Origin: Candidatus Methanomethylophilaceae archaeon
Lineage (GTDB): Archaea; Thermoplasmatota; Thermoplasmata; Methanomassiliicoccales; Methanomethylophilaceae
DNA length: 38,352 nucleotides
Assembly: GCA_017935945.1 (NCBI GenBank)
Contig: JAGBGN010000057.1
Location: forward strand, 1 to 38,352
Direction: 5' to 3'
The first letter of the stretch is position 1. Each line of letters starts with the position of its first letter. A program made the position numbers and the translations under genes. The notes under the pieces were generated by a model. It was not told where the DNA came from and made no database searches. It saw only the letters and a list, made by a program, of their open reading frames with translations. This document shows, piece after piece, positions 91 through 20,633 of this stretch.

Positions 91-3000
91 TCAATTCGTC
101 AAAGTGCCGAATTCACGTCCGAGGATGTAGAGGTCGGAACCCGCATCGATCCATACAGGCCCGTCATAATCCATGAACATACCATCTCCGATACGGTACA
201 TGTATCCGACCACGCCCTGGGTCTGAAGGGAGCTCAGATCCAGCATGTATTGGAGTACGGGGTCCACCGTAACGACCACATCTCCATAGATGTCGGGAAC
301 CGATACCTCACCTGTTGTGGGATCGTAGGTGTATCCGGTCGCCGGAAGTACGTTGCCGCCGATACGGACCTCTATGTCGTCGGGAAGCCTGTACCTCTCG
401 TTGTTGTCGGATGTGGAGGTGATCGTCAGGTTCAGGTCCGCACCATCATCGACCACTGTGGGTGTGTTGACCGTTGCACCCTCTAGTGGATCGACCACCA
501 CGGTCACATTCCAGACCCTGATGGCATCGACATCGATAACCACCTTCCCGAATACGTCGACGGAAAGGGCACCATCGACATCGTATGCATACTGACCTGT
601 GGCCAACTCCGCATCTGCCATGGTTCCGGAAATGGAATCGGGCAACCTGTATCCCTCCTCGGCGATGATTACTGACGAGTATGTCAGACCCTTGCCCACA
701 TACTGCACATCCACCGGTTCGATACCCTCGCCATCGATGGTGACCGAGAACACCTCTAAAAGTGCATGACCATGAACCGAACTCTCCGGGATTGCTGTCC
801 TTCCAACGGGCATATCGGCCTTGGCAACGGGATCGTCGACGGAACCGAGGTACACTACATACTGCCCGGGGGCCACATCTCCGGATACGGTTCCGGATGT
901 CATGGATAGGATCGCATCGGTTCCACTGACGGGCCTCACGATCACATCTATCGGATCCATGGATGCAGGTGATGCTCCATCGACAACGAGATCCACGGTT
1001 ATCGGGACCCTTCCATCGGAACCGGTTACGGTGCAGGTCACATCGACCTTCGTCACAACTTCATGATCGACGGATACGTTGTTCGTACCCATGGGTGCCC
1101 AGGAATAGGTGTATGTGCAACCCGCTCCGACAGCACCGTGACCGACTGCTGTGAAGGATACGGTCGTACCACCGGGTACGGTTGTACCGGAGGATATGGG
1201 CATCTCCCCTACTGCGGCAGTGACGATACTCTCGGAAGATACTCCCTCATCGATAACGTCGTATGATACGGTGTAGAAGTCAATGGTCAGATCCGAGTCC
1301 TTCCCCTCTATTGTGATCGATTCTCCGGTCTCAACATCTCCATAGAAGATGTTGTATGTCTTTCCGAGCACCACCTCACTGAAAGTCAGCTCCCCATCTT
1401 CAACGGAGGTGGGTGTGAGGGATGCACCTCCATCATCCACGACGATTATGCTCCATCCAGTATCTGCCTTGGTTCCATCGACGTTGGTTGTCACTGTCAA
1501 GGTATTGACGGTCCATATAGCGCTAACGACGATGTTGTCCGTGACATCGATTCCACTGTCGATAGTCAACTCACCATCGGAGAACGACCAGTCCTGATCC
1601 TCCGTGAGATCCTGTCCGCCCATCTCCACCGAGGTGACGTCGTCGATGGTGTATCCATCACGGACGAGTCCGATTGACTCGGACGAGGTGAGGATTCCGA
1701 ACGGGACGGTACCGGGGACGGCACGACCGTCATTGACCGTGACGGTGGCGCCATCGGTCCACCTGGCTACCACGGATGCTCCATCCAAACGGATCCAGCA
1801 ACCGTTGGAATCTGTGTAGCCGGATATATTGGCGACGAGGTCCCCACCGGCATCGATGAGCATGGTATCGTTACCATCCTGGATATAGTATCCCATGAGG
1901 TAATATCCCTCGTAGGAGGGAGCAATGAACTCTGGGAGTGTCTGATTGTAGGTCGCGGTCACCTTGGTGGAACCGTTCACCCCTCCAGCTGAATCTACAG
2001 TGATATCATACTGGTTGGGGATCCAACCTGCAACGAGTTCCAGGGTCTCTCCAGTGGGGACGATCCTGTCCCAATATCCTTCGGATGTCGTGAACCCGAC
2101 CGCATCGCGTACCAGGGTCCCGTCAGAGGCGACAACCTTGGTGACATCGCTGAAGTATCCTCCGAAGGTGTATCCCTCGCGAACCGGGGCGGTGAACTCC
2201 ATGGGTGCCCCACCGATGGTGTACTCGGTACCGGTGCTGAGGTATGTGACCGTCAGTCCATCCGGACCTCCGGTCCCAGGACCGTTGTCGAGGGCGATGA
2301 CGTATTCGACGGGTTCCCATACTGCATACAGTGTGTAGGTTCCGGTTGCATCATACTGGGTGGACAGCGTGGCCCCATCCTCATAAATGACATTTCCGTC
2401 GGAGGTGATGGCCCATCCCGCCAGTGCGTATCCAGGATTCTCATAACCGTTGATCGTCAGATCCTTTTCGGTACCGTATATGAAGTCCTGATCGGACATC
2501 GCACCTGTCGCACTCTCCGAATTCTTATCGAACCTTATGGTGAATGTGATCGCATTCCATATAGCGGTCATCTGCACAGTTCCGTTGTCCACGGAGGTGA
2601 GGTTGGTGACAGATGCCCCATCCTGGTACGGGACGTTCAGACCGGACACGGACCATCCAGCGAACACGTGTCCCGCGACCGTGAATCCGAGTGGGGTCAA
2701 CACCGCGGGAGTGTCGTACTCCATGTCCATGGGTTCCATGGATCCAGTCGCATCCTCATGACCTGCGATGAACTCGATGGTGTATGTGTTGGGTCTCCAA
2801 GTAGCTGTGAGAGTTACGACCTCCCCCTCGTTCACACAGAGGTCCTGCATGTACACCGAACCGTTGGAACCGATTACCGGGACGTTGGTTCCTATCGCAC
2901 TTCCATCCACAAGGGTCGTCGACTGCTGGTCCAGGACATCACCGGAAATTGCAGCATCGTTCAATGCACCGGAGACCATCCATCCCACGAAGGTGTATCC

Positions 3001-6000
3001 AGTCTTGGAAGGATCGTCAACGGACTGCGCAATACCGTACAACCATTCCCCAGGGGAGAGGTTGCCCTCTGTCCCACCATCCAAATCGTAATCGACCTGG
3101 TACTTGATCGGACCCCAGCTGGCAGTCAATGTCACGACACCGCCGTCAGTGACGGACATATTACTTATGTCTACCAACTTGGAGCCCTCCATATCGGAGT
3201 TCTTGATCAACTCCCCTGGTATGAGCCCCAGGTTCCAGTTTGCACCTGATCCGTCACGGTACTCCGTCTCCCCCAAGTCTGCATCGTCACCAGAGAGCGT
3301 CCATCCGAGGAAACTGTAACCGTCCTTGGTTGCGGGATGGACGGTCTGCCACTCACTATACTTCCATGTGGTCGGCTGGGCACCGGTAGCGATACCACCA
3401 CCCAGATCATAGTTCACTGTGTAGTCTATGGGCACATCCTCAACACTGAAGACCACGCTGTGATCGGGCATCTGGAACCTTCCATCGGCCACGGTCACAT
3501 GCACCTGATCCTCCGTAGTCTCTGTCCAAGCGGTTACATCGAGGTCCTTGTATCCGACCTTCGATGCTATACTCGGAAGGGTCACGATGACCCCGGGTGC
3601 GTAATACTCTTTGTCCACAAATGACCCATTACGTTCGTATGTGACACTGTCCCAAAGGACCCACAGTGCGTATACCTTCACTGTATCTCCGTCGTCATCT
3701 ATCTCGTAATAGAACTGGTCATCGACTGTATCCCCGTCATTTGCCACCCAACCATGGCTCGCACTGTCACCATAATCGTCTGTCCTCCATCCGTTCTGCC
3801 CCCAACCCTCACGTAAGAACTTGGAAGGCATGATCTCCCCACCAGCACCATACACGAACGTCTGGGTGTAGGTAACGGGAATAGAGGTATCTCCGTCGGT
3901 CGTGAATGCTGGCGAACCATCATCCATCGTTATGACGGTCGGCTCGACAGTGGGATTACCTGGATTGAATTCCAAGATGAACGTCCACGGTGTCACGATG
4001 AATCCCAATCCATCCGTGTCAGATGTGACGGTCTGGATACTGTGGACCTCCGCATCGGCACCAGTGGCGGATACGGTCATCAGGAAACGGTTGAGGGGCT
4101 CGATCACGAGTTCACCGCCCAGTCCGTCCGGGACCATCACGGAGAACGTCCCTGCGTCCGCATCGATGGTTCCGACGTACCTGTCATCACTGGATACCTC
4201 GAACACCACCTGCATGTCATCGGATGATATGGAATACTCCTGCTTCCCTGATTCTATGGTTCCGGACACCTCGTGGAGGATCTGGGACCTGAGCCAGTAG
4301 CTGTTGGAGTATACATCATCATTGTACACGAATCCTGTGAGTTTCGCCCTATCGAGGGGTTCGTTGCCCGTGTCCCCGACAACATGGAGAACACGGTCCT
4401 GCGACCATGTGCTTCCGACGTTGACGGCCGTGATGGTGCCATTGCCATCCGAGGTCTTCCATGTCCACTCGGTTTCACCGGAGTAATACTTCTTCCCATC
4501 GTATTCGATCTCTGTGAAGTAGCGGTATGAATTCAGGATGTTGTAATCATAATCACCGTACACCAACCTACCGTCCTCGTCCATGGTGATCACATAGTAC
4601 AACGAATCGTAGGTGTACCATGTATTGTTGATGGGCGTCTCGGAACGTGTGAACATGGATGCGTTGAACACGGTCTCTATGGATGAATCACCAGAGGTGT
4701 GTTCCATAGGGGTTATGGTTCCCTCGACATCCTGGGCGATGTTGATGTTGAAGAAGGCATCGTTGGCTACGGAATTCCAGGTACGACCGGGAATCTTGAG
4801 CACATCTATGCCTGTACAGTCCGCAAACGCCCTGTAACCGATATTCACCACGGAAACAGGGATGATAAGTTCACCTGTCATCCCTTCCGCTCCGGCGAAT
4901 GCCCCGTCCCCTATGCGGACGACATCCTCAGGTATAATGACTGAATCTGAGGATAGACCGGTCGGATAGGCCATGACTGTCCTGGTCACATTGGTGTTGT
5001 CTCCGGAACCGGTGGTGTAGTTCTGGATGAGCAATTCTCCTTCAACGGTGTATTTGTAGTAGTTGCCTCCTCCGGAACCGCCCTGTGCCACGGAGAATCC
5101 CATGAACGTGGAGCGTTCGAACGCCGATTCATAGATGCAACCGATACTTGCAGGGATCTCCAGGGTCCCCGTTACACCGGTCATGTTGGCGAAAGCGTAA
5201 CTGTCTATGTAATTCGAACCGCCCCTGATCACGACCGATGTTATTCCGGAGCAACCGTCGAACGCATTGGAACCAATGATTGTCACTGTTGACGGGATCT
5301 CCAGGGTCCCCGTCAATGATGAACATCCACTGAAAACTCCGTAGCTGATGGATGTTATGTAGGACGGGATGATTACAGTACCGGTCATCGATGAACAATT
5401 CGCAAATGCACTTCCCCCCAGGGACGTGAGGTTCTCGGGAAGGTAGAGTTCCGAGGCGATTGATGAACATCCCCTGAATGCGGAACTACCGATGGTCGTA
5501 ACCGTACTTGGAATCGTCAACGAGGTTATGTTGAGACATCCGTTGAACATATTGTTCGGTATCCCGGTCACACCTTCGGAAATCACCACCCCCGTCAGTC
5601 CTTCACACTCGCTGAATGCATATGTTCCGATGCTGGTTACCGTCGAAGGGATCGTTACATCCCCGGTCAGTCCCTCGGAATACTCGAAGGCACCGTACCC
5701 GATGCTGACCAGACCCTCGGTCAATGACAGGGGACCCGAGATCTTACAACTCTGGAACGCATGGTCCCCTATCTCTCTGACGTTTCCAGGTATCGTCAAT
5801 CCTGACGTCACTTCATTGCTTAGACAATAGAAGGCTCCTTCTCCGATTGAGGTGACATCCAAGGGTATGGTTATCTGTGTCAACATGGGGTCAACCAACA
5901 CGATGATCCTCTCATCATCCTCCCCCCTCTCTATGAAGAGGCCGTTCTCCAGATAGTATCTGGAGGATTCCGAGGATGCCATCGTCAGACCACCATGGGT

Positions 6001-6582
6001 CAAACCGGCGAATACATCGCAATCTTCTAAGGAACCTACACCCGCGGGAAGCGACAGGGTTCCTGTGATGGATGCACCGTAGAATGCATCGCTTGCTATC
6101 GACAGGGTTTCACCGGGAACCGGTTCACCGATGGACATGTTTCCGGTGACTTCGATATCTTCAAAAGCATAGGCCTCGATGGATGTGACCGATCCAGGGA
6201 TGATCAGATTACCTGAAAACTCCGTTCCCCAGAATGCATCATACCCAATCGTCTTTATCGTGTCCGGCAAGGTCAACGTTCCGACTGTGGAATAACGGAA
6301 ATAATCTACTCCAGTAACAGTGTATTGCACATCATCATACGATACGGTTTCGGGAATGGTCACAATATTGGCTTCCATCTCATCAGTCAACTTCACATGA
6401 ACCTCTTTCGAGGTGTCGTCATCGACGGTGATCACATATCCGATGTTGTTGCCATGTTCGTCAGTGACTGCGAACGTATCGCCCACAGCCCCCTCCGCGG
6501 CATCGTCCACACAAACGAGGACCACCCCGAATACCAGCACAAACATCGCCATGGCCACCGCCATCACTCTGCTATCATTCAT
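91..6582 (-). CDS. Giant secreted surface protein with BspA-like leucine-rich repeats and InlB B-repeats
   Basis: This is a 2163-residue probable extracellular protein, likely an adhesin-like surface factor. Residues 1-32 form a signal peptide: a short charged start, then the hydrophobic stretch VMAVAMAMFVLVFGVVLVCV. Residues about 50-640 carry many BspA/LRR_5-type repeats with the recurring pattern 'IPxxVTxIGxxAFxxCxxLTG'. Residues about 1060-1600 hold six InlB B-repeat/Listeria-Bacteroides-type modules (for example 'YTVNYDLGGG...GYSFLGW'). The last 550 residues are beta-rich, Thr/Val/Asp-rich modules. I see no C-terminal membrane segment, LPXTG-like or other anchor before the TGA stop. A GGAG ribosome-binding site lies about 9 nt before the ATG, and a TATA-like CTTTATATC lies about 75 bp upstream. 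Such proteins are common in host-associated Methanomassiliicoccales. The ligand cannot be inferred. Confidence 0.88.
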   Translation of the reverse strand: MNDSRVMAVAMAMFVLVFGVVLVCVDDAAEGAVGDTFAVTDEHGNNIGYVITVDDDTSKEVHVKLTDEMEANIVTIPETVSYDDVQYTVTGVDYFRYSTVGTLTLPDTIKTIGYDAFWGTEFSGNLIIPGSVTSIEAYAFEDIEVTGNMSIGEPVPGETLSIASDAFYGASITGTLSLPAGVGSLEDCDVFAGLTHGGLTMASSESSRYYLENGLFIERGEDDERIIVLVDPMLTQITIPLDVTSIGEGAFYCLSNEVTSGLTIPGNVREIGDHAFQSCKISGPLSLTEGLVSIGYGAFEYSEGLTGDVTIPSTVTSIGTYAFSECEGLTGVVISEGVTGIPNNMFNGCLNITSLTIPSTVTTIGSSAFRGCSSIASELYLPENLTSLGGSAFANCSSMTGTVIIPSYITSISYGVFSGCSSLTGTLEIPSTVTIIGSNAFDGCSGITSVVIRGGSNYIDSYAFANMTGVTGTLEIPASIGCIYESAFERSTFMGFSVAQGGSGGGNYYKYTVEGELLIQNYTTGSGDNTNVTRTVMAYPTGLSSDSVIIPEDVVRIGDGAFAGAEGMTGELIIPVSVVNIGYRAFADCTGIDVLKIPGRTWNSVANDAFFNINIAQDVEGTITPMEHTSGDSSIETVFNASMFTRSETPINNTWYTYDSLYYVITMDEDGRLVYGDYDYNILNSYRYFTEIEYDGKKYYSGETEWTWKTSDGNGTITAVNVGSTWSQDRVLHVVGDTGNEPLDRAKLTGFVYNDDVYSNSYWLRSQILHEVSGTIESGKQEYSISSDDMQVVFEVSSDDRYVGTIDADAGTFSVMVPDGLGGELVIEPLNRFLMTVSATGADAEVHSIQTVTSDTDGLGFIVTPWTFILEFNPGNPTVEPTVITMDDGSPAFTTDGDTSIPVTYTQTFVYGAGGEIMPSKFLREGWGQNGWRTDDYGDSASHGWVANDGDTVDDQFYYEIDDDGDTVKVYALWVLWDSVTYERNGSFVDKEYYAPGVIVTLPSIASKVGYKDLDVTAWTETTEDQVHVTVADGRFQMPDHSVVFSVEDVPIDYTVNYDLGGGIATGAQPTTWKYSEWQTVHPATKDGYSFLGWTLSGDDADLGETEYRDGSGANWNLGLIPGELIKNSDMEGSKLVDISNMSVTDGGVVTLTASWGPIKYQVDYDLDGGTEGNLSPGEWLYGIAQSVDDPSKTGYTFVGWMVSGALNDAAISGDVLDQQSTTLVDGSAIGTNVPVIGSNGSVYMQDLCVNEGEVVTLTATWRPNTYTIEFIAGHEDATGSMEPMDMEYDTPAVLTPLGFTVAGHVFAGWSVSGLNVPYQDGASVTNLTSVDNGTVQMTAIWNAITFTIRFDKNSESATGAMSDQDFIYGTEKDLTINGYENPGYALAGWAITSDGNVIYEDGATLSTQYDATGTYTLYAVWEPVEYVIALDNGPGTGGPDGLTVTYLSTGTEYTIGGAPMEFTAPVREGYTFGGYFSDVTKVVASDGTLVRDAVGFTTSEGYWDRIVPTGETLELVAGWIPNQYDITVDSAGGVNGSTKVTATYNQTLPEFIAPSYEGYYLMGYYIQDGNDTMLIDAGGDLVANISGYTDSNGCWIRLDGASVVARWTDGATVTVNDGRAVPGTVPFGILTSSESIGLVRDGYTIDDVTSVEMGGQDLTEDQDWSFSDGELTIDSGIDVTDNIVVSAIWTVNTLTVTTNVDGTKADTGWSIIVVDDGGASLTPTSVEDGELTFSEVVLGKTYNIFYGDVETGESITIEGKDSDLTIDFYTVSYDVIDEGVSSESIVTAAVGEMPISSGTTVPGGTTVSFTAVGHGAVGAGCTYTYSWAPMGTNNVSVDHEVVTKVDVTCTVTGSDGRVPITVDLVVDGASPASMDPIDVIVRPVSGTDAILSMTSGTVSGDVAPGQYVVYLGSVDDPVAKADMPVGRTAIPESSVHGHALLEVFSVTIDGEGIEPVDVQYVGKGLTYSSVIIAEEGYRLPDSISGTMADAELATGQYAYDVDGALSVDVFGKVVIDVDAIRVWNVTVVVDPLEGATVNTPTVVDDGADLNLTITSTSDNNERYRLPDDIEVRIGGNVLPATGYTYDPTTGEVSVPDIYGDVVVTVDPVLQYMLDLSSLQTQGVVGYMYRIGDGMFMDYDGPVWIDAGSDLYILGREFGTLTN

Positions 6583-6914
6583 CTCTCAATCTCCTGTCCC
6601 CCGAATCATGGAGGGCAGCTGATGCTGCTGGTATCGGAGACTCCTTGACAATCTGATATAAAGACGACATATGACGTACAGCAGCCATGGACCAACGGAT
6701 GATTCTGTTAAACATCCGAAACATCTGGTTGCACGAAAATCCCCCTCCCCTCGCACCAATCCGGCGTCATCTTTGAGAACAAATTACGTCATTCGTACGA
6801 CGCGTGCGACATCCCTGATTCCGTGTGCGAGTGAGCACCACAGGACGTCCCCGAACCCTGCGCCAACCCATCTCCCGATTTATACTGGCACCAGCGAATC
6901 CGAAGTACGATAGT
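6583..6914. promoter_or_regulatory. Divergent promoter region between the surface protein and the zinc-ribbon/SPFH operon
   Basis: This 332-bp gene-free interval separates divergent genes. On the minus strand a TATA-like CTTTATATC (about 6653-6664) would start a leader of about 50 nt for the surface protein. That leader holds a small GCAGC-ATCA-GCTGC hairpin (6615-6628). On the plus strand TTTATAC at 6879-6885 sits about 30 bp before the ATG at 6915, so that transcript is nearly leaderless. I found no convincing gene in the rest. Confidence 0.55.
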
Positions 6915-7835
6915 ATGGCGTTCAAGTTTTTCAAGGACGGTGACGACCTCTATGATGAAGCCACCGAGTTACTGAAGCGCGGAGAGTATGGTAAGGCACG
7001 CGACATATTCCAGAAATCCATCGACAAGGATGGTGGTACGGATGATGTTGCAGCAGTCATGGTTGCACTCATAGACCTGAAGGACCGTCAAACCGAGGGT
7101 TCTGCGTACAAGAGGGTCTCCGATGCACTTTCTAAGACGGATGCCACTGAGATCGTATTCGGACTCACCACCATATCGTGTTCGGAACTCTCCACGGAAT
7201 GTGGACTCATGAAGCGCAAGATGGAACTTCTCAGTACTTCCGACAAGAAGTCAAAGTCAGATGGGCTGCAGAAGCTGGCCGTGGAGTTCCAATCCGCGAT
7301 AGGTGACCGCAATCTGATCGTTCCGATGCTATTCAGGAACGATTCCACGATGACTGGTACCACCGAGTTCCTGAATCTGATGGCCATATCCTATGAGACG
7401 CTTTCCGAGGACATTGTGTGGACGGATACCCAGAAGGCAGCCGAGTACGAACAGATTGCCGCCGGGTACAGGCAGCAGAATGGCCAGCCCCCGGATGCGA
7501 ACATGGAGAGGATAAGGTGCTTCTCCACTACCTGCAGATGCTGGATGTGCGGGAGGGTCGCCACCGGGGAGGGCATACACTTCTTCAGTGCACCATCGGA
7601 AGTGACCACTAGTCTGGATAACGGTGAAGACAGTCCGGTCAAGTCCAGGCCGGAAGGTGGGGCCCACATCTACATCTGCCGTGCTTGTTACACCGCAGTC
7701 TCCAAGAGATCCGATGAGATTTCCAGGAGATACTACAACGAAGCCATCGCAGAACTTCGCCGTGCAGAGGTGAGACTGCAGGCGGAGATCGCGGCCCTCC
7801 AATCACAGATCTCCATGATCAGGATGAGTAGATAA
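6915..7835 (+). CDS. TPR-like protein with C-terminal zinc finger, first gene of the zinc-ribbon/SPFH operon
   Basis: This is a 306-residue cytoplasmic protein of unknown function. I chose the ATG at 6915 because a TATA box lies about 30 bp upstream; the reading frame stays open further upstream, but that part would precede the promoter. Residues about 10-45 ('LYDEATELLKRGEYGKARDIF') resemble a TPR helix pair. Near residue 210 begins a likely metal site with Cys-rich 'CWMCG', paired with 'CRAC' near residue 255. The C-terminus (about 270-300) is a heptad-like helix rich in Glu, Ala and Gln. The stop is TAA, one of only two non-TGA stops in the window. The next gene begins one base after it, so the two are surely cotranscribed. 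I do not recognise a named family. Confidence 0.8.
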   Translation: MAFKFFKDGDDLYDEATELLKRGEYGKARDIFQKSIDKDGGTDDVAAVMVALIDLKDRQTEGSAYKRVSDALSKTDATEIVFGLTTISCSELSTECGLMKRKMELLSTSDKKSKSDGLQKLAVEFQSAIGDRNLIVPMLFRNDSTMTGTTEFLNLMAISYETLSEDIVWTDTQKAAEYEQIAAGYRQQNGQPPDANMERIRCFSTTCRCWMCGRVATGEGIHFFSAPSEVTTSLDNGEDSPVKSRPEGGAHIYICRACYTAVSKRSDEISRRYYNEAIAELRRAEVRLQAEIAALQSQISMIRMSR

Positions 7836-7836
7836 T

Positions 7837-9381
7837 ATGGATGGTATGGTAGAGCTCAGGTGCAAATACTGCGGTGCCCCGTTGGACAGATCGGATGTGG
7901 AATCCGACTCCCCTTACGTGACCTGTCCCAGCTGCGGGACGACTCAGCAGAGGGTGGATGCCAGGGCATACATGGACCAGATGATGGGCCAGATCCAATC
8001 ATGGATAAGCAAGGCAATCCCTGGTGGATTCTCCCTTGCACAACAGGAGAACGTGGATCCCATCGCGAGGCACAATATATTCATCAACAACGTGAAACCC
8101 ATGTTGGATGTGGAGATCAGAGACTACAGGTTCTCTTTCGACAGTGCTATGTCATCCCCGCTCATGGTGATGCCGTTCTCCAAGGGTGAGACCCTCAAAT
8201 CCAAGCATACCTCCACTCAGGCGTTCGAGTTCAATGCCAAGTTGAAAAGTATCGAACCCTTGGCTGTAGATGGAAACGATAAGAGAACCGTCCAGGAGGC
8301 CGAAGACATCGCAATGGCCTACGCCTTGATTGTCAACAACTCCAAACTGACCATCGACACGACACCCGGGCGCTTTTCACTCATGTCGAAGAACTTCAAA
8401 GAAGCTGCAGGAGCGGTCAGAAAGCATGAGGGGTACACGGCTCTGGCCACCCGTCTGGATGCCCTGGCAGAGGTCTGCAACGCATCGGAAATGGTCCTCA
8501 ACGGGGACACCCTCGGGTGTTCGGTGGGAGTCGAACGTGCGATATCCATGTTCGAGAAATCCAAGGAAGGTGTCCTCTCTGATCCCCGTACCGCCATGAT
8601 GCTACGTGCCATAGATGTGGAGCTGTCCCAGACGAAGACCCTGAAGGGTGTGACGGACATGGTCCTCAACGGGACCACCAGAGATCCTTTGAAAACGCTG
8701 GAGATCGTGGACAAAGTGTCTGCGATAGATTATCCGCGTATCGGGAACTGGAGCAACCTCCTGGGCAGGGCGGACAGGGATGCTGAGATATACGGTTACA
8801 TCGAGAGGATCTCCTCGGCCAAAGGTGACGGTACCCTTCCGATCTGCACCGGTGGGGGAGACACGCTGTACCCATTCTGGGATGTTGACCTCAGATACAG
8901 CTTCACCACAGGCAGCCTGTTCTCCAAGAAGACTGTGGAAGTCACTGAGGACATCCTCGTCCCCGCCACGTTCACGATCAGCCAGAATGCCCTGTCGGAT
9001 CCGAGGAAGGGCTTGACGGACATCTTCTCCGCAGCTCCGCAGAGCTCCATACTCGACAGGATCAAGGGCAACGAGGACAGCATCAGTGGTGGAAGCGGCA
9101 TCGGACGGCTCACAGAATCCGCTGCAGAGAACAGGCCCGGGAACAGGACGGTGGTCGTACCACTGTCCACCAGGACCGAAGCGGTCAGACTCGTCGAAGA
9201 GTATCTGAAACAGTGTTCCGCCACCCATTCCAAACTGAAACTCAGCAGTCCCAAGGTCAAGGAGCTGGTCTACATCCCCTGCGCGATGGCCGACGGGGGG
9301 ATCTCCCTCCCCGACGAGTTCCGCGGACTGGAACCCGCCATCCTCAGGATGCCGGAGATGAGGGGAGTGGTGACCATATGA
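7837..9381 (+). CDS. Zinc-ribbon protein of unknown function, second gene of the operon
   Basis: This 514-residue protein has an N-terminal zinc ribbon ('CKYCGAPLD...CPSCGTTQ', residues about 7-35) followed by a helix 'ARAYMDQMMGQIQSWISKAIP'. A long soluble region without membrane segments follows. The start ATG lies two bases after the upstream TAA stop. An internal in-frame ATG four codons later (MVELRCKYCG) is an alternative. From memory, similar N-terminal layouts occur in archaeal and bacterial proteins encoded beside SPFH/YdjI-like genes; I could not check this. The position between a TPR/zinc-finger protein and a coiled-coil protein suggests a multi-subunit assembly. No catalytic motif is evident. 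Confidence 0.8.
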   Translation: MDGMVELRCKYCGAPLDRSDVESDSPYVTCPSCGTTQQRVDARAYMDQMMGQIQSWISKAIPGGFSLAQQENVDPIARHNIFINNVKPMLDVEIRDYRFSFDSAMSSPLMVMPFSKGETLKSKHTSTQAFEFNAKLKSIEPLAVDGNDKRTVQEAEDIAMAYALIVNNSKLTIDTTPGRFSLMSKNFKEAAGAVRKHEGYTALATRLDALAEVCNASEMVLNGDTLGCSVGVERAISMFEKSKEGVLSDPRTAMMLRAIDVELSQTKTLKGVTDMVLNGTTRDPLKTLEIVDKVSAIDYPRIGNWSNLLGRADRDAEIYGYIERISSAKGDGTLPICTGGGDTLYPFWDVDLRYSFTTGSLFSKKTVEVTEDILVPATFTISQNALSDPRKGLTDIFSAAPQSSILDRIKGNEDSISGGSGIGRLTESAAENRPGNRTVVVPLSTRTEAVRLVEEYLKQCSATHSKLKLSSPKVKELVYIPCAMADGGISLPDEFRGLEPAILRMPEMRGVVTI

Positions 9382-9403
9382 CCTGGACTAGGAGGTGAAC
9401 AGG

Positions 9404-9943
9404 ATGACGATGGATCAGAAAGTGAAGTATGAGATAAAGAGCAAAATGACCCTCGCTGAGAGGGTTGCCATGTACGTCCCCGGATACAGGGGGTACAGGG
9501 AGAGAAACCTCCGCAGAGACGAGGACAGGGCGGTCAGGAACGAACTGTCCCGCGCCATACAGGGCACAAAACAGGAACTGGCGACCGTACAGAGGACACT
9601 GGTGAGACAACCCGGACCCATGATGGATGTCGAGAGGATAAGGACCAAGGTCGACAGGTACGACATAGACGTGAAGAAGGCCGCAAATGGATACTCCGGA
9701 TTCCATGCCTCGATGAAGGTCCAACAGGAGGATCTTGACAGGTTGGTAGAATGGGATGCGGGACTGTTCGATGACATAGAACTGCTCAGACAGCACACTT
9801 CCGAGCTCATGGCTGCCACCGATTCGGACGGGGAGGTTCAAACCTGCATACGTCAGCTGGAGAGGACCATCGACTCGCTGATAGAGTCGTACAACCAGAG
9901 GGAATCAATCATGAAGGGCCTCACAGACGGAGGTGAGGAGTGA
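9404..9943 (+). CDS. Coiled-coil protein, third gene of the operon
   Basis: This 179-residue protein is almost entirely helical and highly charged. The start ATG at 9404 is chosen because GGAGGTGA (9391-9398) lies 5 nt upstream; a GTG at 9395 would overlap that ribosome-binding site. The N-terminus has a conserved-looking 'YVPGYRGYRERNLRRDEDR' segment, followed by heptad-rich helices up to the Glu-rich end. There are no cysteines arranged as a zinc site and no membrane segment. The stop codon overlaps the next ATG by one base (TGATG), so it is probably translationally coupled to the SPFH gene. The helical build and the context resemble PspA-type partners of SPFH/YdjI-like proteins in bacteria, but this is an inference from layout, not clear homology. 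Confidence 0.8.
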   Translation: MTMDQKVKYEIKSKMTLAERVAMYVPGYRGYRERNLRRDEDRAVRNELSRAIQGTKQELATVQRTLVRQPGPMMDVERIRTKVDRYDIDVKKAANGYSGFHASMKVQQEDLDRLVEWDAGLFDDIELLRQHTSELMAATDSDGEVQTCIRQLERTIDSLIESYNQRESIMKGLTDGGEE

Positions 9944-11046
9944 TGGCCAGATCCAACGTCGTCTCATGGGATTCCCAGGGACCGGATGACATCATATACG
10001 CCTATGACCAGGATGACCTCAGGACGCTCACATCCGTTACCGTTCCCGAACATGCTGTCGCATTGTTCATAAGGGACGGACAGCTGACAGGTGTACTGGA
10101 ACCTGGAAGACATGTCATCACATCCACGAACATCCCTTGGCTGACCAAGATCTACCAGCTTGCCATGGGATATAAGGAGACTCCGTTCAAGGTGAGTATC
10201 GTCTACATCTCCCAGAAGATGTTCAACGGCAGATGGGGCATACGTGGGATGATCAAGGCCGCACAGGGATATGAGGTTCCGGTCACTATGATGGCCAATG
10301 GCGACTACCAATTCCGTATCTCCGACATCCCAGTCTTCTTCACACAAATCCTGGGGGGATTGAAATCCTACACTACCGGTGACCTGAACGGGTTCATGAA
10401 ATCATTCATAAACGAACAGGTGACCCAGCAACTGAGCACACATTACTACATGGAGGTCCTCAACAACCTCGAACAGGCATCCACGACAACAAGAGTACTT
10501 GTGGAGCAGTACTTCGCACAGAGGGGGATCGAACTCCTCTCGTTGAAGATCGCGGAGGTCAGGACAACGGATGAGGATCAGAAGAAGATCTTCGAATACC
10601 TGCAGTTCAGCAGTGCAAACGGAGAGGCGTTCAGGAAGTATGAGGTCATGGAGAGCATGGCGGATGCCATTGGTGAATCCAGTGGAGGCGCGGCAATGGG
10701 TGCGGGCATGATGTTGTTCCCTCAGATGTTCCAACAACTGCAACAGCAACCTCAGCAGACGCAGGTACAACAGAGGCCGCAGGTGCTCTGCCCTTACTGT
10801 GGCGGACCCAACGACAATCCCTACAGGTTCTGCAATAACTGTGGCAAACCATCTCCGCAAGTCCAACCGATGGGTTCGACACCTCAGATGCAGACAAGTC
10901 AGATGCATCAACCATTTCCCCAACCCACACCACAACCATCTGGGGATGCACCACGCTTCAAGAACTGCCCCTACTGCGGGCAGGATATCAGCGGTCTCCC
11001 CAAAACCCCCAGATTCTGCCCGTATTGTTCGGAACAACTTTACTGA
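9943..11046 (+). CDS. SPFH/virion-core-like protein with two C-terminal double zinc ribbons (YdjI-like)
   Basis: This 367-residue protein has an N-terminal SPFH/band-7-like domain of the YdjI/'virion core' type (about 1-235). It includes 'VTVPEHAVALFIRDGQLTGVLEPGRHVITSTN' early on and 'RGIELLSLKIAEVRTT' near the end of the domain. A Gln-rich linker follows. Then come two zinc-ribbon pairs: 'CPYCGG...FCNNCGK' (about 285-305) and 'CPYCGQ...FCPYCSE' (about 345-365). There is no transmembrane segment. The ATG at 9943 overlaps the upstream TGA and follows GGAGGTGAGG; a GTG one codon earlier is less likely. Bacterial YdjI-like proteins work with PspA-like coiled-coil proteins at stressed membranes. 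A similar scaffold role is plausible here but not shown. Confidence 0.87.
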   Translation: MARSNVVSWDSQGPDDIIYAYDQDDLRTLTSVTVPEHAVALFIRDGQLTGVLEPGRHVITSTNIPWLTKIYQLAMGYKETPFKVSIVYISQKMFNGRWGIRGMIKAAQGYEVPVTMMANGDYQFRISDIPVFFTQILGGLKSYTTGDLNGFMKSFINEQVTQQLSTHYYMEVLNNLEQASTTTRVLVEQYFAQRGIELLSLKIAEVRTTDEDQKKIFEYLQFSSANGEAFRKYEVMESMADAIGESSGGAAMGAGMMLFPQMFQQLQQQPQQTQVQQRPQVLCPYCGGPNDNPYRFCNNCGKPSPQVQPMGSTPQMQTSQMHQPFPQPTPQPSGDAPRFKNCPYCGQDISGLPKTPRFCPYCSEQLY

Positions 11047-11051
11047 AACAC

Positions 11052-11071
11052 GGTGGTCCGAAAGGACCACC
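11052..11071 (+). terminator. Perfect hairpin ending the zinc-ribbon/SPFH operon
   Basis: GGTGGTCC-GAAA-GGACCACC forms an 8-bp stem with a GAAA tetraloop six bases after the operon's last stop codon. No U-tract follows. It may act as a 3'-end stabiliser rather than a true intrinsic terminator. Confidence 0.6.
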
Positions 11072-11593: not shown

Positions 11594-14116
11594 TCACTCG
11601 GAACCCTTGTCTGTTATCTTGCGACCCGGACCCCTCCAGTTCCAGTTACCGAGGAGGTGCATCATCGCAGGGACGATGTACGTACGGACCAGGAGTGCAT
11701 CCACCAGGATGGCGAAGCAGAGTGCGAAACCGAACTCCTGCATCATCTCCATGGAGGAGAGCATGAGGGTTCCGAAGGCACCGGCCATGATCAGACCGCA
11801 GATGGTGATGATGGATCCTGTGTGGACGACCGCATGGCGGATAGCATCATCATTGCTCATTCCCTTGTCGGTGACGTTCTCCTTGATACGTGTTGTCAGG
11901 AGGATATCGTAATCCATTCCGAGACCGAGGCATATGACGATGAGCATCAGCGGGACCATCCACATCATCTCTCCGCCAAGGACGTTGACGAAGACATAAT
12001 GTGTTGCTGCAAGGGTCCAGACGACACTCATGAGGATCGTCAGGACGGACCTGAACGGGATCGTGTAGGACCTCATGACCACGAACAGCAGGAGCAGGAT
12101 CATCACGACGACGAGCACCGCGATCCCACCCATCTCATCACTGATGGTCTCCGAGACTTCATACATAACGACAGCAGAACCGGTGACCCATGACTCGACG
12201 ATACCTGAACCGGGATTGGCGATGAGGTACTCATCGACCTCTTCCGAGATCTTCTGGATTGATCCCATGGATGTTGCGGACATGGATGCCGCAACGGTGG
12301 AAGCGGATACCCTCAGGTATGTCACAGATGAACTGTCACCATCGATGTTCTCTCCACCGATGGTGCCTGCAGTGTGGTTGACGATGTAATCTATCATCGG
12401 ACCTGCTCCGAAGAGGATCTCCACATCGCTCATTCCCTGTGCCCTGAGCCCCTGGATAGTCGGTCCGAGATATGATGTGATGGTGCTGTTGGAACCTGCT
12501 ATCACCGCATTGATGACATCGGTGGGATTGGTGGCAGGATTGATCTGTGCGGATGTAGCGGTCTCATTGACGATGGCATCCCAGTAGAACGGGGTCGTGA
12601 CCTCTGCGATGTTGTCATCACTGGAAAGAATCTGTGCACCCATCTCGGACACATGATTGTATGCCGTGTCACTGACCCAGCTGAACACCTTGACGGGTCC
12701 GGCGGGCGTATCCTGTGTGGTGATGTATGCGACAGGTTGCTCGAACTCGAGGATGACCCAGTCGGGCATGAGCATACCTGCGTTGGAGTACTCGGTGATC
12801 AGATCCATTCCCTCACCGGAATCTCCGGAGGACATGGACGAGATCATGTCATAGGATGTCTCGGACTCCAAGGCGACATATGCAGCGGGGACCGTGACCA
12901 GGACCGCAGCCAAGACGATTACCTTGGCGTGTTTGATCGAGAACTTGGATGATCTCTCGAAGTACCTGCTGGCTATGTTTCCACACCATGCGTACCAACC
13001 GCGGGTCGCCTTTCCACCCTCCATGAACGCATCGGTCTTTGTGGGCCAGAAGATCCTGTCACCGACGAGGTTGAGCATCGAGGGGATGAATGTCAGGGCC
13101 GCGATGAGAGCCACGAAGATGGACAATGCCATGCATATTCCCATCACGGAGACCATCTCATAGGAACAGACAGCCATGGATCCGAATCCGATGAAGACCG
13201 CTGCTCCAGAGATGGCGATGGACTCGCCGGCCCAGATGATGGCCTCACGGAGGGAGTCGTGGTGGCTCTTGCCTGCACGTAGCTCCTCCCTGTAACGTGC
13301 GATGATGAAGATACAGTAATCGCAACCTGCACCCATCATCGTGACGAGCAGGAGCATCTGTGTGAAGAAGAATATGTTGAGGACCTGTCCCAGGAGGAAC
13401 ATCAGTCCCATCACTACCACGAACGCGATACCTATGGTCATCGGCGGTGTGGCGGATGTTATGAATGACCTGAAGAACAATCCTATCAGGATGAGGATCA
13501 TCAGGATTGTGAAAGGTTCAATCCTCTGGAGGTCCTTTGCAGAACCATCACTCATATCGAACGATATGGCGGACATTCCGGTGACGTACTCGGAAAACTC
13601 CACGTTGCCGTAATCTGCCTCGAACTCGTCCATCACATCATCGACGAATGCCCTCAGTTCAGGGGTGTCATCGATGGCATTGACCTCCACGTCAGGGTTG
13701 TAGAGGACACCGAGCATTATGATTCCAGAACCGTCCTCGGCTCCCTGCGGGGACATCGGATAGAACGCCATGGGCTCCGACATCAATTTCCCGGACCACG
13801 TGGGATCGGTGGCGGCGGCTGCGTTCAGATACTGAATGAATTGTTGGGCCTGGGCCATTCCAGCTTCATCCTCGTAGTGGAGGACGAGGATGGGAATAGA
13901 CGAGGTGTCGACACCCGAACTTGGGAAGTACTGGGCGACGATGGTAAGTCCCTGGACGGACTCGGAGTTCTCGTCGGCCATATCGTTCATGTCGTAACTC
14001 ATCACATCCCCGACTTTCAGAGCCATTGGGACACAACAAATCAGGAGAACGACCCAGATTGCTATGATGGCCTTCGAGTGCTTCAGAATGCCGTCTGCAA
14101 GCTTCTCGAATATCAT
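11594..14116 (-). CDS. MMPL/RND-superfamily transporter
   Basis: This 840-residue integral membrane protein belongs to the MMPL/HAE3 group of the RND superfamily, which exports lipids or hydrophobic compounds using ion gradients. It has two similar halves. Each has one N-terminal membrane helix (first one about 16-35), a large outside domain, and a five-helix bundle. The family signatures are visible as 'GAGCDYCIFIIARYREE' (about 262) and 'GLGMDYDILLTTRIKE' (about 735). The length is normal for a complete two-half protein. The start is supported by GGGGGGAG just before the ATG and by the TATA-like TTTATTAAAA about 20-30 bp upstream. The substrate cannot be read from the sequence. It stands alone, with no adaptor gene beside it. 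Confidence 0.9.
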   Translation of the reverse strand: MIFEKLADGILKHSKAIIAIWVVLLICCVPMALKVGDVMSYDMNDMADENSESVQGLTIVAQYFPSSGVDTSSIPILVLHYEDEAGMAQAQQFIQYLNAAAATDPTWSGKLMSEPMAFYPMSPQGAEDGSGIIMLGVLYNPDVEVNAIDDTPELRAFVDDVMDEFEADYGNVEFSEYVTGMSAISFDMSDGSAKDLQRIEPFTILMILILIGLFFRSFITSATPPMTIGIAFVVVMGLMFLLGQVLNIFFFTQMLLLVTMMGAGCDYCIFIIARYREELRAGKSHHDSLREAIIWAGESIAISGAAVFIGFGSMAVCSYEMVSVMGICMALSIFVALIAALTFIPSMLNLVGDRIFWPTKTDAFMEGGKATRGWYAWCGNIASRYFERSSKFSIKHAKVIVLAAVLVTVPAAYVALESETSYDMISSMSSGDSGEGMDLITEYSNAGMLMPDWVILEFEQPVAYITTQDTPAGPVKVFSWVSDTAYNHVSEMGAQILSSDDNIAEVTTPFYWDAIVNETATSAQINPATNPTDVINAVIAGSNSTITSYLGPTIQGLRAQGMSDVEILFGAGPMIDYIVNHTAGTIGGENIDGDSSSVTYLRVSASTVAASMSATSMGSIQKISEEVDEYLIANPGSGIVESWVTGSAVVMYEVSETISDEMGGIAVLVVVMILLLLFVVMRSYTIPFRSVLTILMSVVWTLAATHYVFVNVLGGEMMWMVPLMLIVICLGLGMDYDILLTTRIKENVTDKGMSNDDAIRHAVVHTGSIITICGLIMAGAFGTLMLSSMEMMQEFGFALCFAILVDALLVRTYIVPAMMHLLGNWNWRGPGRKITDKGSE

Positions 14117-17922: not shown

Positions 17923-19437
17923 ATGGCTACATTCAGCGAACTCTGCATAGGCAAAAGACTCTGCGCTGCGATCTCAGAGATGGGTTGGACCGAACCCACC
18001 CCCATCCAGTTGGAATCCGTTCCGGAAGGGATGGCGGGTAAGGACCTCTTCGGACAGGCACAGACGGGAACGGGGAAGACCGGAGCCTATGCAATGATCA
18101 CCCTGGGTAGGACGCGCGCAGGTTCACAGGCCCCCACTACTGTCGTCATGACACCGACCAGGGAACTTGCCGACCAGGTCTCCAAGGAGATGCGTGCCAT
18201 ATCATCACACACGAAGCACAGGATCGTAGCCGTATACGGCGGCGCCAGCATATCCGAACAGGTGCAGAGGCTGGAAGAGGGATGCGATGTCGTCGTAGGA
18301 ACCCCCGGTAGGATCCTGGACCTCCACGGACGTGGTGTCCTTGTATTCGATGCGGTCAAGGAACTCGTCATAGATGAGGCGGACAGGATGCTCGACATGG
18401 GATTCATGGAGGACATGGAGACCATAATCTCACTCACACCGACCACGCGCCAGACCCTGTTGTATTCGGCAACCCTCTCCAAGGAGGTGCGCGACATAGC
18501 CAAGAGGTCCATGAGGGAACCTGTGGAGGTTTCAGTCTCCCATGACGATGTCGTATCCGATCTCGTTAGACAGTACTACGTCGAGGTCAAGAGGAACGGC
18601 AAGATGGATGTCCTCAGGGATATCATGGCCAACGGCGACCCGAAGGTCGTCATATTCTGCTCTACCAAGAAGATGGTCGATGACCTGTACTCCGGATTCA
18701 GTGCCGAGGGCATGAAGGTCGGAGCGTTGCATGGGGACATGCCCCAGTTCAGACGCGAGAAGACCATCAATGCGTTCAGGAAAGACAGGATGAACGTCCT
18801 CATAGCAACCGACGTCGCCGCAAGAGGATTGGACATCGACAACGTGGAATGCGTGGTGAACTACGATGCACCCCTGGATCCGGAAACCTACACCCACCGC
18901 ATAGGTCGTGCGGGAAGAGCTGGAAGGACCGGTGTGTCCGTGACGTTCATCACACCCATGGAGGACAGGAGGATCCCCACATACGAGGAATACATGGGGA
19001 GATCCGTCGAGAGGGTCACGAGGAAACAGATTCAGAACCTCACCATCTCGAATCCGGAGCTGAAGGCCATGACCAAAGAGAGGATGAAGGATGACAGGAA
19101 CGGTAAGACATCCAAACCCAAGATCAAAGCGGTCATCTCCAAGGAGAAACCTATACCTCTCTCTGATGTCACTGTACTGTCCCTGGATGTGGGTAAGGCC
19201 TCAGAAGTGGACCGTGTCATGCTCACATCACACATCATATCGTGTTCCGGGATCAACGAAGATGACATTGGACGCATAGGCATGGGTTCGAATTCATCCT
19301 TCGTCGAGATATCCACGAAGAAGGCCTCTGATGTCATAAAGGCCCTCAACTCATCCAAACTCAAAGGTAAGAGGATAAGGGCGGACTATGCACCTGAAAA
19401 GAAGAGATGCAAGGACAAGCTGAAGGATAAGCCGTGA
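17923..19437 (+). CDS. DEAD-box ATP-dependent RNA helicase with DbpA-type C-terminal domain
   Basis: This 504-residue RNA helicase unwinds or remodels structured RNA. The ATG at 17923 is preferred over a TTG at 17884, because the protein then opens directly with the normal 'MATFSELCIGKRLCAAISEMGW' helix. The Q motif is 'WTEPTPIQ' (22-29), motif I AQTGTGKT (46-53), DEAD at 151-154, and then 'SAT', 'ATDVAARGLDI' and 'HRIGRAGRAG'. The C-terminal 'IGRIGMGSNSSFVEI' fold type (about 440-490) matches the DbpA RNA-binding domain, which in bacterial DbpA binds 23S rRNA. A lysine-rich linker (about 375-420) precedes it. It is a close paralogue of the helicase at 20748, with near-identical DNA around the ATDVAARGLDID motif. 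Confidence 0.93.
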   Translation: MATFSELCIGKRLCAAISEMGWTEPTPIQLESVPEGMAGKDLFGQAQTGTGKTGAYAMITLGRTRAGSQAPTTVVMTPTRELADQVSKEMRAISSHTKHRIVAVYGGASISEQVQRLEEGCDVVVGTPGRILDLHGRGVLVFDAVKELVIDEADRMLDMGFMEDMETIISLTPTTRQTLLYSATLSKEVRDIAKRSMREPVEVSVSHDDVVSDLVRQYYVEVKRNGKMDVLRDIMANGDPKVVIFCSTKKMVDDLYSGFSAEGMKVGALHGDMPQFRREKTINAFRKDRMNVLIATDVAARGLDIDNVECVVNYDAPLDPETYTHRIGRAGRAGRTGVSVTFITPMEDRRIPTYEEYMGRSVERVTRKQIQNLTISNPELKAMTKERMKDDRNGKTSKPKIKAVISKEKPIPLSDVTVLSLDVGKASEVDRVMLTSHIISCSGINEDDIGRIGMGSNSSFVEISTKKASDVIKALNSSKLKGKRIRADYAPEKKRCKDKLKDKP

Positions 19438-19463
19438 ATGGGAAAAGTTATCTTCAAGGATGG

Positions 19464-19473
19464 TCCTATAAAT
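19464..19473 (+). promoter_or_regulatory. TATA box of the HipA-like gene
   Basis: TCCTATAAAT lies about 24 bp before the ATG at 19491. This gives the HipA-like gene its own leaderless promoter even though it follows the helicase closely, and it supports choosing this ATG. Confidence 0.55.
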
Positions 19474-19490
19474 CCGTGCGAGATAATGCG

Positions 19491-20633
19491 ATGACACATA
19501 CACTCATGCACAAAGATCTGGAAGTGGCTGAGGTCACACTGGATGCCTCGGGCATGATAACCAACATCGGGAAGGTGATTTCTAAAAACCATCTACCGGT
19601 GGATATCGTTCATGACGGATTCATGGAACGTAGCAGATTGAGCAAATGGTGGGAACAACGTTGCATACCTGCTAGTCGCAGTGGAATCAGGAACCTGTTG
19701 GATCAACTCGACATCTGTTGTCCTTCCGTACTCCTTTCAAGATCATTAGGACTCAGCCTCTCCGATCAATACTGGATTCGCCCATCAGAAATCGATCTTG
19801 ATTGGCATGATGTGAATTTCTTCGAAAATCCATTCTCCGATGATGTCGGCGACCTCCTTTTTGGAAATACCCTCACAAAAGGAGAAATTGACCTATCATC
19901 TCCAGACAATACTTCTGAAGGCAATCTCAAAAAAAGATGGAAAATCATCGATGGTGAACGCATTCTCCTGAAATCTGGGAACGATCCCCACAGATTCGAA
20001 GTGTTTAACGAGGTTATCGCATCGTCGCTCATGGACAGGTTGGGGATAGTTCATACGAAATACGATCTCTTATGGATTGGTGATGGTCCTTGTTGCAGTT
20101 GTAAAGACTTCATCACACCCTCTACGGATCTGGTCACTGCATATCATATCCAAAGGATGCAGAAAAGACCCAACAACAGATCCGTATACGATCACTATGT
20201 GAAATGCTGTTCAGACATCGACATAGATATCATCCCATCGTTGGACCGCATGATCGTTGTCGACTACCTCATGTTGAACCATGACAGACACATGAACAAC
20301 TTCGGTCTGATCCGTGACGTGAAAACCTTGGAATGGTTGGGTCCAGCACCCATCTTCGATACAGGCTCCTCACTCGGCCATGACCGCATCACATCCATGA
20401 TGTCGTCATCACTTTACGCCGTCCCAAAACCATTCGCCAAGAGTTTCGATGAATCACTCGACCTCGTATCATCATTCGATTGGATAAATCTCGACTCCCT
20501 GGAAGGTTTTCCGGACGAGATCGATACATTCCTGGCCGATACCCGTGGATACATCGATGATTTACGCAGAAAGACCACAGTCAACCTGTTATCTGATAGG
20601 ATCAGATCCCTTAAGAACCATCTGCGTAGCTGA
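19491..20633 (+). CDS. HipA-like Ser/Thr protein kinase
   Basis: This 380-residue protein resembles HipA-family kinases. The start was set by the promoter 24 bp upstream; an earlier in-frame ATG at 19437 would lie upstream of it. The N-terminus 'MTHTLMHKDLEVAEVTLDASG' and '...KWWEQRCIPASRSGI' match the HipA-related group common in gut microbes. The kinase elements are Lys161 in 'ILLKSG', the catalytic 'HDRHMNNFG' (Asp265, Asn270) and the metal-binding 'FDTG' (Asp290). No HipB-like antitoxin is next to it. Base composition and codon choice look more AT-rich than in the neighbouring helicases, hinting at acquisition. Its partner and target are unknown, so calling it a toxin would go beyond the evidence. 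Confidence 0.8.
   Translation: MTHTLMHKDLEVAEVTLDASGMITNIGKVISKNHLPVDIVHDGFMERSRLSKWWEQRCIPASRSGIRNLLDQLDICCPSVLLSRSLGLSLSDQYWIRPSEIDLDWHDVNFFENPFSDDVGDLLFGNTLTKGEIDLSSPDNTSEGNLKKRWKIIDGERILLKSGNDPHRFEVFNEVIASSLMDRLGIVHTKYDLLWIGDGPCCSCKDFITPSTDLVTAYHIQRMQKRPNNRSVYDHYVKCCSDIDIDIIPSLDRMIVVDYLMLNHDRHMNNFGLIRDVKTLEWLGPAPIFDTGSSLGHDRITSMMSSSLYAVPKPFAKSFDESLDLVSSFDWINLDSLEGFPDEIDTFLADTRGYIDDLRRKTTVNLLSDRIRSLKNHLRS

Follow-up and report, generated by a model that had tools for sequence, protein, structure and literature searches.

Genomes of the archaeal family Methanomethylophilaceae carry a compact operon that ends in a gene for an SPFH protein of the Bacillus YdjI type, with the genes in the fixed order TPRzn-ZR2-TM-CC-SPFH in 41 of the 47 named family loci for which gene maps were drawn. 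We propose tentatively, and with somewhat less than even confidence, that this operon specifies a membrane scaffold free of PspA and of TPM proteins, in which a CC-SPFH pair and a TPRzn-ZR2 pair have been joined around a new four-TM anchor, that the four-helix bundle CC is a widespread archaeal SPFH partner in the place of PspA, and that some strains possess an anchorless second version of the system. The window analysed here, a stretch of 38,352 nucleotides from a Methanomethylophilaceae methanogen of gut type (assembly GCA_017935945.1, contig JAGBGN010000057.1), contains a copy of the latter kind at positions 6915-11046, with four co-directional genes in the order TPRzn-ZR2-CC-SPFH (Table 1).

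When named genomes were scanned with a CC profile, the close relatives fell within the Methanomethylophilaceae, including Methanomethylophilus and Methanoplasma; in the loci of the 47 outside the count given above, the operon is cut by contig ends or its gene calls are incomplete. The initial annotation had described a four-gene operon and suggested a survey of gene neighbourhoods. Four genes is true of the window copy, but the usual operon of the family has five, and the survey finds these genes linked in fixed order. Within the family they do not lie mostly apart, a possibility that had also been raised, although the two halves of the operon do occur apart outside it. Median gaps in the five-gene form are 4, 13, 6 and 5 bp. 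The TM protein, of 118-131 aa in most loci, has four hydrophobic segments. At many of these loci a glutamine synthetase III gene is divergent to the operon, and a thermosome gene is close by. No TM gene is present in the window copy, which offers no room for it between ZR2 and CC (9381-9404).

Table 1. Genes, predicted zinc sites and expression signals of the window operon (coordinates in the 38,352-nucleotide window).
Feature	Position	Strand	Description
TATA-box-like element TTTATAC	6879..6885	+	Centred about 33 nt 5' of the first ATG; weak, from the sequence
TPRzn	6915..7835	+	306 aa; N-terminus with weak TPR similarity, a single C4 zinc site (CWMC/CRAC), helix at the C-terminus
TPRzn zinc site, C209/C212 and C255/C258	7539..7688	+	Invariant in an alignment of 24
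ZR2	7837..9381	+	514 aa; zinc ribbon at the N-terminus, helical repeats in the middle, C-terminal domain rich in beta structure
ZR2 zinc ribbon, C9/C12/C30/C33	7861..7935	+	N-terminal; from the alignment of relatives
Shine-Dalgarno AGGAGGTGA	9390..9398	+	Favours the CC start ATG at 9404 over GTG at 9395
CC	9404..9943	+	179 aa; all-helical, predicted four-helix bundle; ATG start
SPFH	9943..11046	+	367 aa; Band_7_1 (YdjI-type) SPFH domain, Q-rich linker, C-terminal double zinc ribbon
SPFH zinc ribbon 1, C283/C286 and C297/C300	10789..10842	+	Cysteines conserved in alignment
SPFH zinc ribbon 2, C342/C345 and C359/C362	10966..11028	+	Cysteines conserved in alignment
Hairpin	11052..11071	+	8-bp perfect stem, GAAA loop; -17.2 kcal/mol, z -2.84

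The intergenic gaps of the window operon are 1, 22 and -1 bp, which agrees with the spacing of -1 to 22 bp first reported. All four open reading frames show a coding signal by coding score, and pairwise comparison with the two nearest copies gives pN/pS ratios of about 0.14-0.42 (for the copy in genome G019, about 0.25 for both TPRzn and ZR2, 0.40 for CC and 0.16 for SPFH). The window genes are under strong purifying selection, and the low ratios on all four identify them as real, constrained genes. At the position of the TATA-like element, relatives have loosely T-rich stretches; its distance from the first ATG would imply a very short leader. The perfect terminal hairpin announced by the initial annotation was found right after the SPFH stop codon and is likely to mark the 3' end of the transcript. 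Hairpins of divergent sequence occur at the same position in about 22 of 24 relatives, and this retention of position despite sequence divergence argues for selection on the 3' end. Elsewhere in the window, a 2163-aa surface protein with BspA-type leucine-rich and Listeria-Bacteroides repeats is encoded upstream and divergently (91-6582, minus strand), an MMPL-family transporter gene, whose conserved neighbour in G019 is a dehydrogenase gene, faces the operon (11594-14116, minus strand), and a gene with a HipA-like C-terminal domain (27.5 bits, just under cut-off) lies at 19434-20633 on the plus strand, between two DEAD-box-helicase-like genes.

Cys-pair zinc sites had been noted in three of the four proteins, and the cysteines of TPRzn, ZR2 and SPFH are indeed invariant or nearly so in relatives. 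The SPFH protein matches Pfam PF13421 (Band_7_1) with 79.6 bits against a curated cut-off of 24. A match to this family is also obtained for 31 of 32 relatives, and in the source genome Band_7_1 was detected in the two operon copies alone. Its C-terminus holds one double zinc ribbon, that is two four-Cys sites, rather than the two double ribbons once counted there. It has no TM helix (hydropathy maximum 0.83), and in none of TPRzn, ZR2, CC and SPFH is a hydrophobic segment long enough for one. Zinc ribbons of the SPFH type, about 60% identical over 60 aa, were also seen in other long open reading frames of the source genome and G019 (L072 7112-8362 and L073 7062-8570).

The TPR signal of TPRzn, at 16.6 bits, is below the Pfam cut-off of 27; for 10 of 24 members a TPR_2 match reaches E<=0.01. 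ZR2 is covered by no family in Pfam or NCBIfam; its AlphaFold2 model (pLDDT 84, pTM 0.73) gave no significant fold match to the PDB with Foldseek. Kinship of ZR2 with Bro1 domains or GID8 was dropped, the matches being too weak, and a resemblance suspected by eye between its C-terminal beta domain and the 'PFW' domains of d196, d333 and d247, proteins of related operons described below, obtained an hhalign probability of just 2-8%. With the YdjG-like d333, ZR2 aligns only over the zinc ribbon, and it has no TM helix. More generally, nothing in TPRzn, ZR2 or the TM protein beyond the zinc ribbon was detectably homologous to YdjG-type or YdjH-type proteins.

The CC protein, initially described as a pure coiled coil, with a PspA-like coiled-coil protein as the suggested bacterial parallel, models as a four-helix bundle (AlphaFold2; pLDDT 85, pTM 0.78) with four main helices of 26-33 residues at positions 34-65, 70-95, 108-140 and 145-176, and has no zinc site. 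Its identity with PspA is rejected by the Pfam search, which gave no match, and by a predicted fold that lacks the long helical hairpin; among the Foldseek matches listed, of which the best was IncA (E 0.014), there was no PspA or ESCRT-III structure. By sequence profile, CC is a remote but clear relative, and a distant one only, of the NCBIfam family LIMLP_15305 (NF047596), named from Leptospira: the window protein scores 45.9 bits (E 5.5e-12), far under the equivalog cut-off of 210, and 30 of 31 CC proteins match the profile (best E 2.9e-20). A literature search found no function for the Leptospira protein. Searches for plasmids with CC and d333 gave no matches.

A match to the PspA family itself (PF04012) was obtained in none of 36 family genomes, as against 9 of 14 control genomes, and TPM (PF04536) likewise in none of the 36, the same search being positive in control genomes. 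Two sister genomes, G043 and G046, have a PspA gene with a TPM gene no more than 3 kb away and, elsewhere in the genome, a Band_7_1-type SPFH protein of the same kind, which in G043 is part of a CC-SPFH-d247-d333-d196 operon (L067). The presence of both in these genomes indicates that CC is something other than a renamed PspA.

In Bacillus subtilis, YdjI is a soluble protein that is recruited by the membrane proteins YdjG and YdjH, interacts with PspA and is required for PspA localisation (PMC8581546); the parts encoded by ydjG, ydjH and ydjI are a zinc-ribbon/TM protein, a TPM protein and a YdjI-type SPFH protein, respectively (PMC8581546, PMC11237479). The earlier proposal of an archaeal counterpart of the ydj system holds in part. 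The SPFH protein is archaeal and of YdjI type, with Band_7_1 domain, C-terminal zinc ribbons and no TM helix, and in sister families CC-SPFH occurs with zinc-ribbon/TM and TPM proteins, the parts list of YdjG, YdjH and YdjI; on the other hand, the 36 family genomes have neither PspA nor TPM, and no similarity of the upstream genes to YdjG-like proteins was detected outside the zinc ribbon. Compared with pspA-ydjGHI, the membrane-stress system of Bacillus, the archaeal operon shares the SPFH protein with C-terminal zinc finger and without TM helix, a small helical partner, the occurrence of zinc ribbons in at least two subunits and, in its five-gene form, a separate membrane protein that may serve as anchor. 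It differs in its host, in a partner that is a four-helix bundle instead of PspA, in the absence of a TPM protein and in the replacement of YdjG-like proteins by TPRzn, ZR2 and an unrelated four-TM protein, the gene for which is present in the five-gene form, including that on contig C73 of the source genome, and missing from the window copy. The 'Meth_adaptin' systems of Methanobacteria, with their SPFH-coiled-coil-zinc-ribbon protein, resemble it as archaeal, membrane-related operons combining SPFH and zinc ribbon, but they belong to Vps4/ESCRT-III systems (PMC10936438), and neither Vps4 nor ESCRT-III is encoded in the present operon. A literature search found no paper joining Methanomassiliicoccales and SPFH.

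Outside the family, the two halves of the operon are found separately. A CC-SPFH-d247-d333(-d196) operon is present at 18 named loci, which belong to other Methanomassiliicoccales, Thermoplasmata and Methanoperedens. One Nitrososphaerales MAG and one Thermofilum MAG have CC-SPFH without d247, d333 and d196. In these operons CC and SPFH are homologous to those of the family, adjacent and in the same order; the other genes differ, with d247, d333 and d196 of their own, sometimes TPM or NfeD/stomatin, and no TPRzn, ZR2 or four-TM gene. The proteins d247 and d333 are mutually related (hhalign 96.6%), each having hydrophobic segments at its C-terminus in addition to a zinc ribbon, and are unannotated zinc-ribbon/TM families. 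In G036, G041, G047 and G050 the stretch of about 5 kb downstream from SPFH contains a TPM gene, and CC-SPFH-d247-d333-d196 operons, some followed by TPM or NfeD/stomatin-like genes, were observed at L060, L064, L067 and L126-L152. Conversely, TPRzn-ZR2 pairs without CC-SPFH occur in other Thermoplasmatota families and in one member of the Methanomethylophilaceae (L201-L204), so that this pair may have a function of its own; the next gene at L202 codes for a small protein containing two hydrophobic segments. Since each pair is found separately, the five-gene operon looks like two modules joined around a new anchor. Some genomes of the genus have a further variant, TPRzn-ZR2-SPFH followed by a gene whose product combines a helical tail with three or four TM helices (L063 3123-7590, L071 3768-8098, L198 5146-9487). 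The last protein, of 218-225 aa, was considered as a TM-CC fusion, and this was rejected: it has TM helices, but homology to CC or TM was undetected. It is possibly an alternative anchor.

The source genome has a second copy of the operon on contig C73 (L004 3132-7603), with all five genes including TM. It adjoins the only GlnN gene of the genome, and one thermosome subunit is also encoded on C73; this contig is therefore probably native, and contamination as its source is disfavoured. Codon 138 of its SPFH gene is an in-frame TGA where the alignment has an invariant glycine; either a genuine nonsense mutation or a mistake in the assembly may account for this. The ZR2 tree unites the window copy with that of G019 (100/98) and the C73 copy with that of G016 (92/86), so a recent duplication within the genome is unsupported; transfer or mis-binning may lie behind the two copies. 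The right flank of the window operon (genes for MMPL protein, dehydrogenase and ABC transporter) is present in G019 without the operon. Together with the tree, this marks the window copy as an extra, relocated copy of uncertain origin.

By analogy with ydjGHI, we give an even chance to the reading that the operon encodes a complex on the cytoplasmic face, held at the membrane and organised by the YdjI-type SPFH protein, that works somewhat like its Bacillus model; physical interactions, membrane location and a role in stress are all inferred from that analogy. SPFH subunits would oligomerise on the inner face of the membrane, CC would bind them and take the place that PspA has in Bacillus, and the four-TM protein would anchor the assembly. 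TPRzn and ZR2 could form an adapter pair that recruits clients, with the zinc ribbons as structural protein-protein modules. Having no anchor gene, the window copy would either borrow the anchor encoded on C73 or form a soluble variant. This scaffold reading is put forward because of the conserved order, the domains, the zinc ligands, the lack of TM helices in the four window proteins beside a four-TM protein in the full operon, the low pN/pS of all four window genes and the CC-SPFH core common to operons with YdjG-like and TPM parts. Against it stand the facts that CC is not PspA, that TPRzn, ZR2 and TM show no detected homology to proteins of the YdjG or YdjH type, that TPRzn-ZR2 is also found without CC-SPFH, that these archaea are not known to have a stress link and that the window copy is without a membrane anchor.

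The same proteins might instead form a chaperone for quality control or assembly, in which an SPFH ring makes a compartment, TPRzn and ZR2 recruit misfolded or unassembled clients, CC serves as lid or adapter and membrane stress is secondary. The TPR-like N-terminus of TPRzn and the helical repeat of ZR2 would suit such a role, and a survey of PSP systems argues that Band-7 proteins with TPM partners are assembly chaperones (PMC11237479); but the TPR signal is weak, the ZR2 fold has no significant match and no protease or ATPase gene is conserved in the operons of relatives, and we regard this explanation as unlikely. Membrane remodelling, with CC polymerising on membranes as an analogue of ESCRT-III and SPFH nucleating it, appears less probable still. 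It would fit the linkage of SPFH to ESCRT-III/PspA in bacteria and some archaea (PMC10936438) and a family without PspA, yet the helices of CC, of about 26-33 residues, are packed into a compact bundle, unlike the long PspA/ESCRT-III hairpin, the structural matches listed contain neither protein, and in two sister genomes a PspA gene coexists with a Band_7_1-type operon of the same kind. We would assign a similarly low probability to the window copy being a decaying, functionless duplicate. Its missing TM gene, the existence of a second copy and the G019 MMPL/dehydrogenase site without operon could be taken in that sense, but its four open frames have low pN/pS, invariant cysteines, compact spacing and terminal hairpin are all retained, and the in-frame TGA belongs to the SPFH gene of C73. 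Least probable is that the zinc-ribbon proteins act on nucleic acid or in transcription instead of in a protein scaffold: zinc ribbons are often nucleic-acid binders, and that of YdjG is annotated TF_Zn_Ribbon (PMC9239133), but none of the proteins has a DNA-binding domain, and their linkage to SPFH and a membrane protein is strict.

The machinery of membrane stress is poorly known in archaea, and the published Psp surveys consulted look for homologues of PspA or PspC. Here an SPFH system persists across a whole family of methanogens without PspA. CC is a conserved partner that can be tested across archaea, and the unannotated TPRzn, ZR2 and TM proteins become tied to a complex that can be tested. 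Its apparent origin from two modules suggests how exchangeable parts are put together into such systems.
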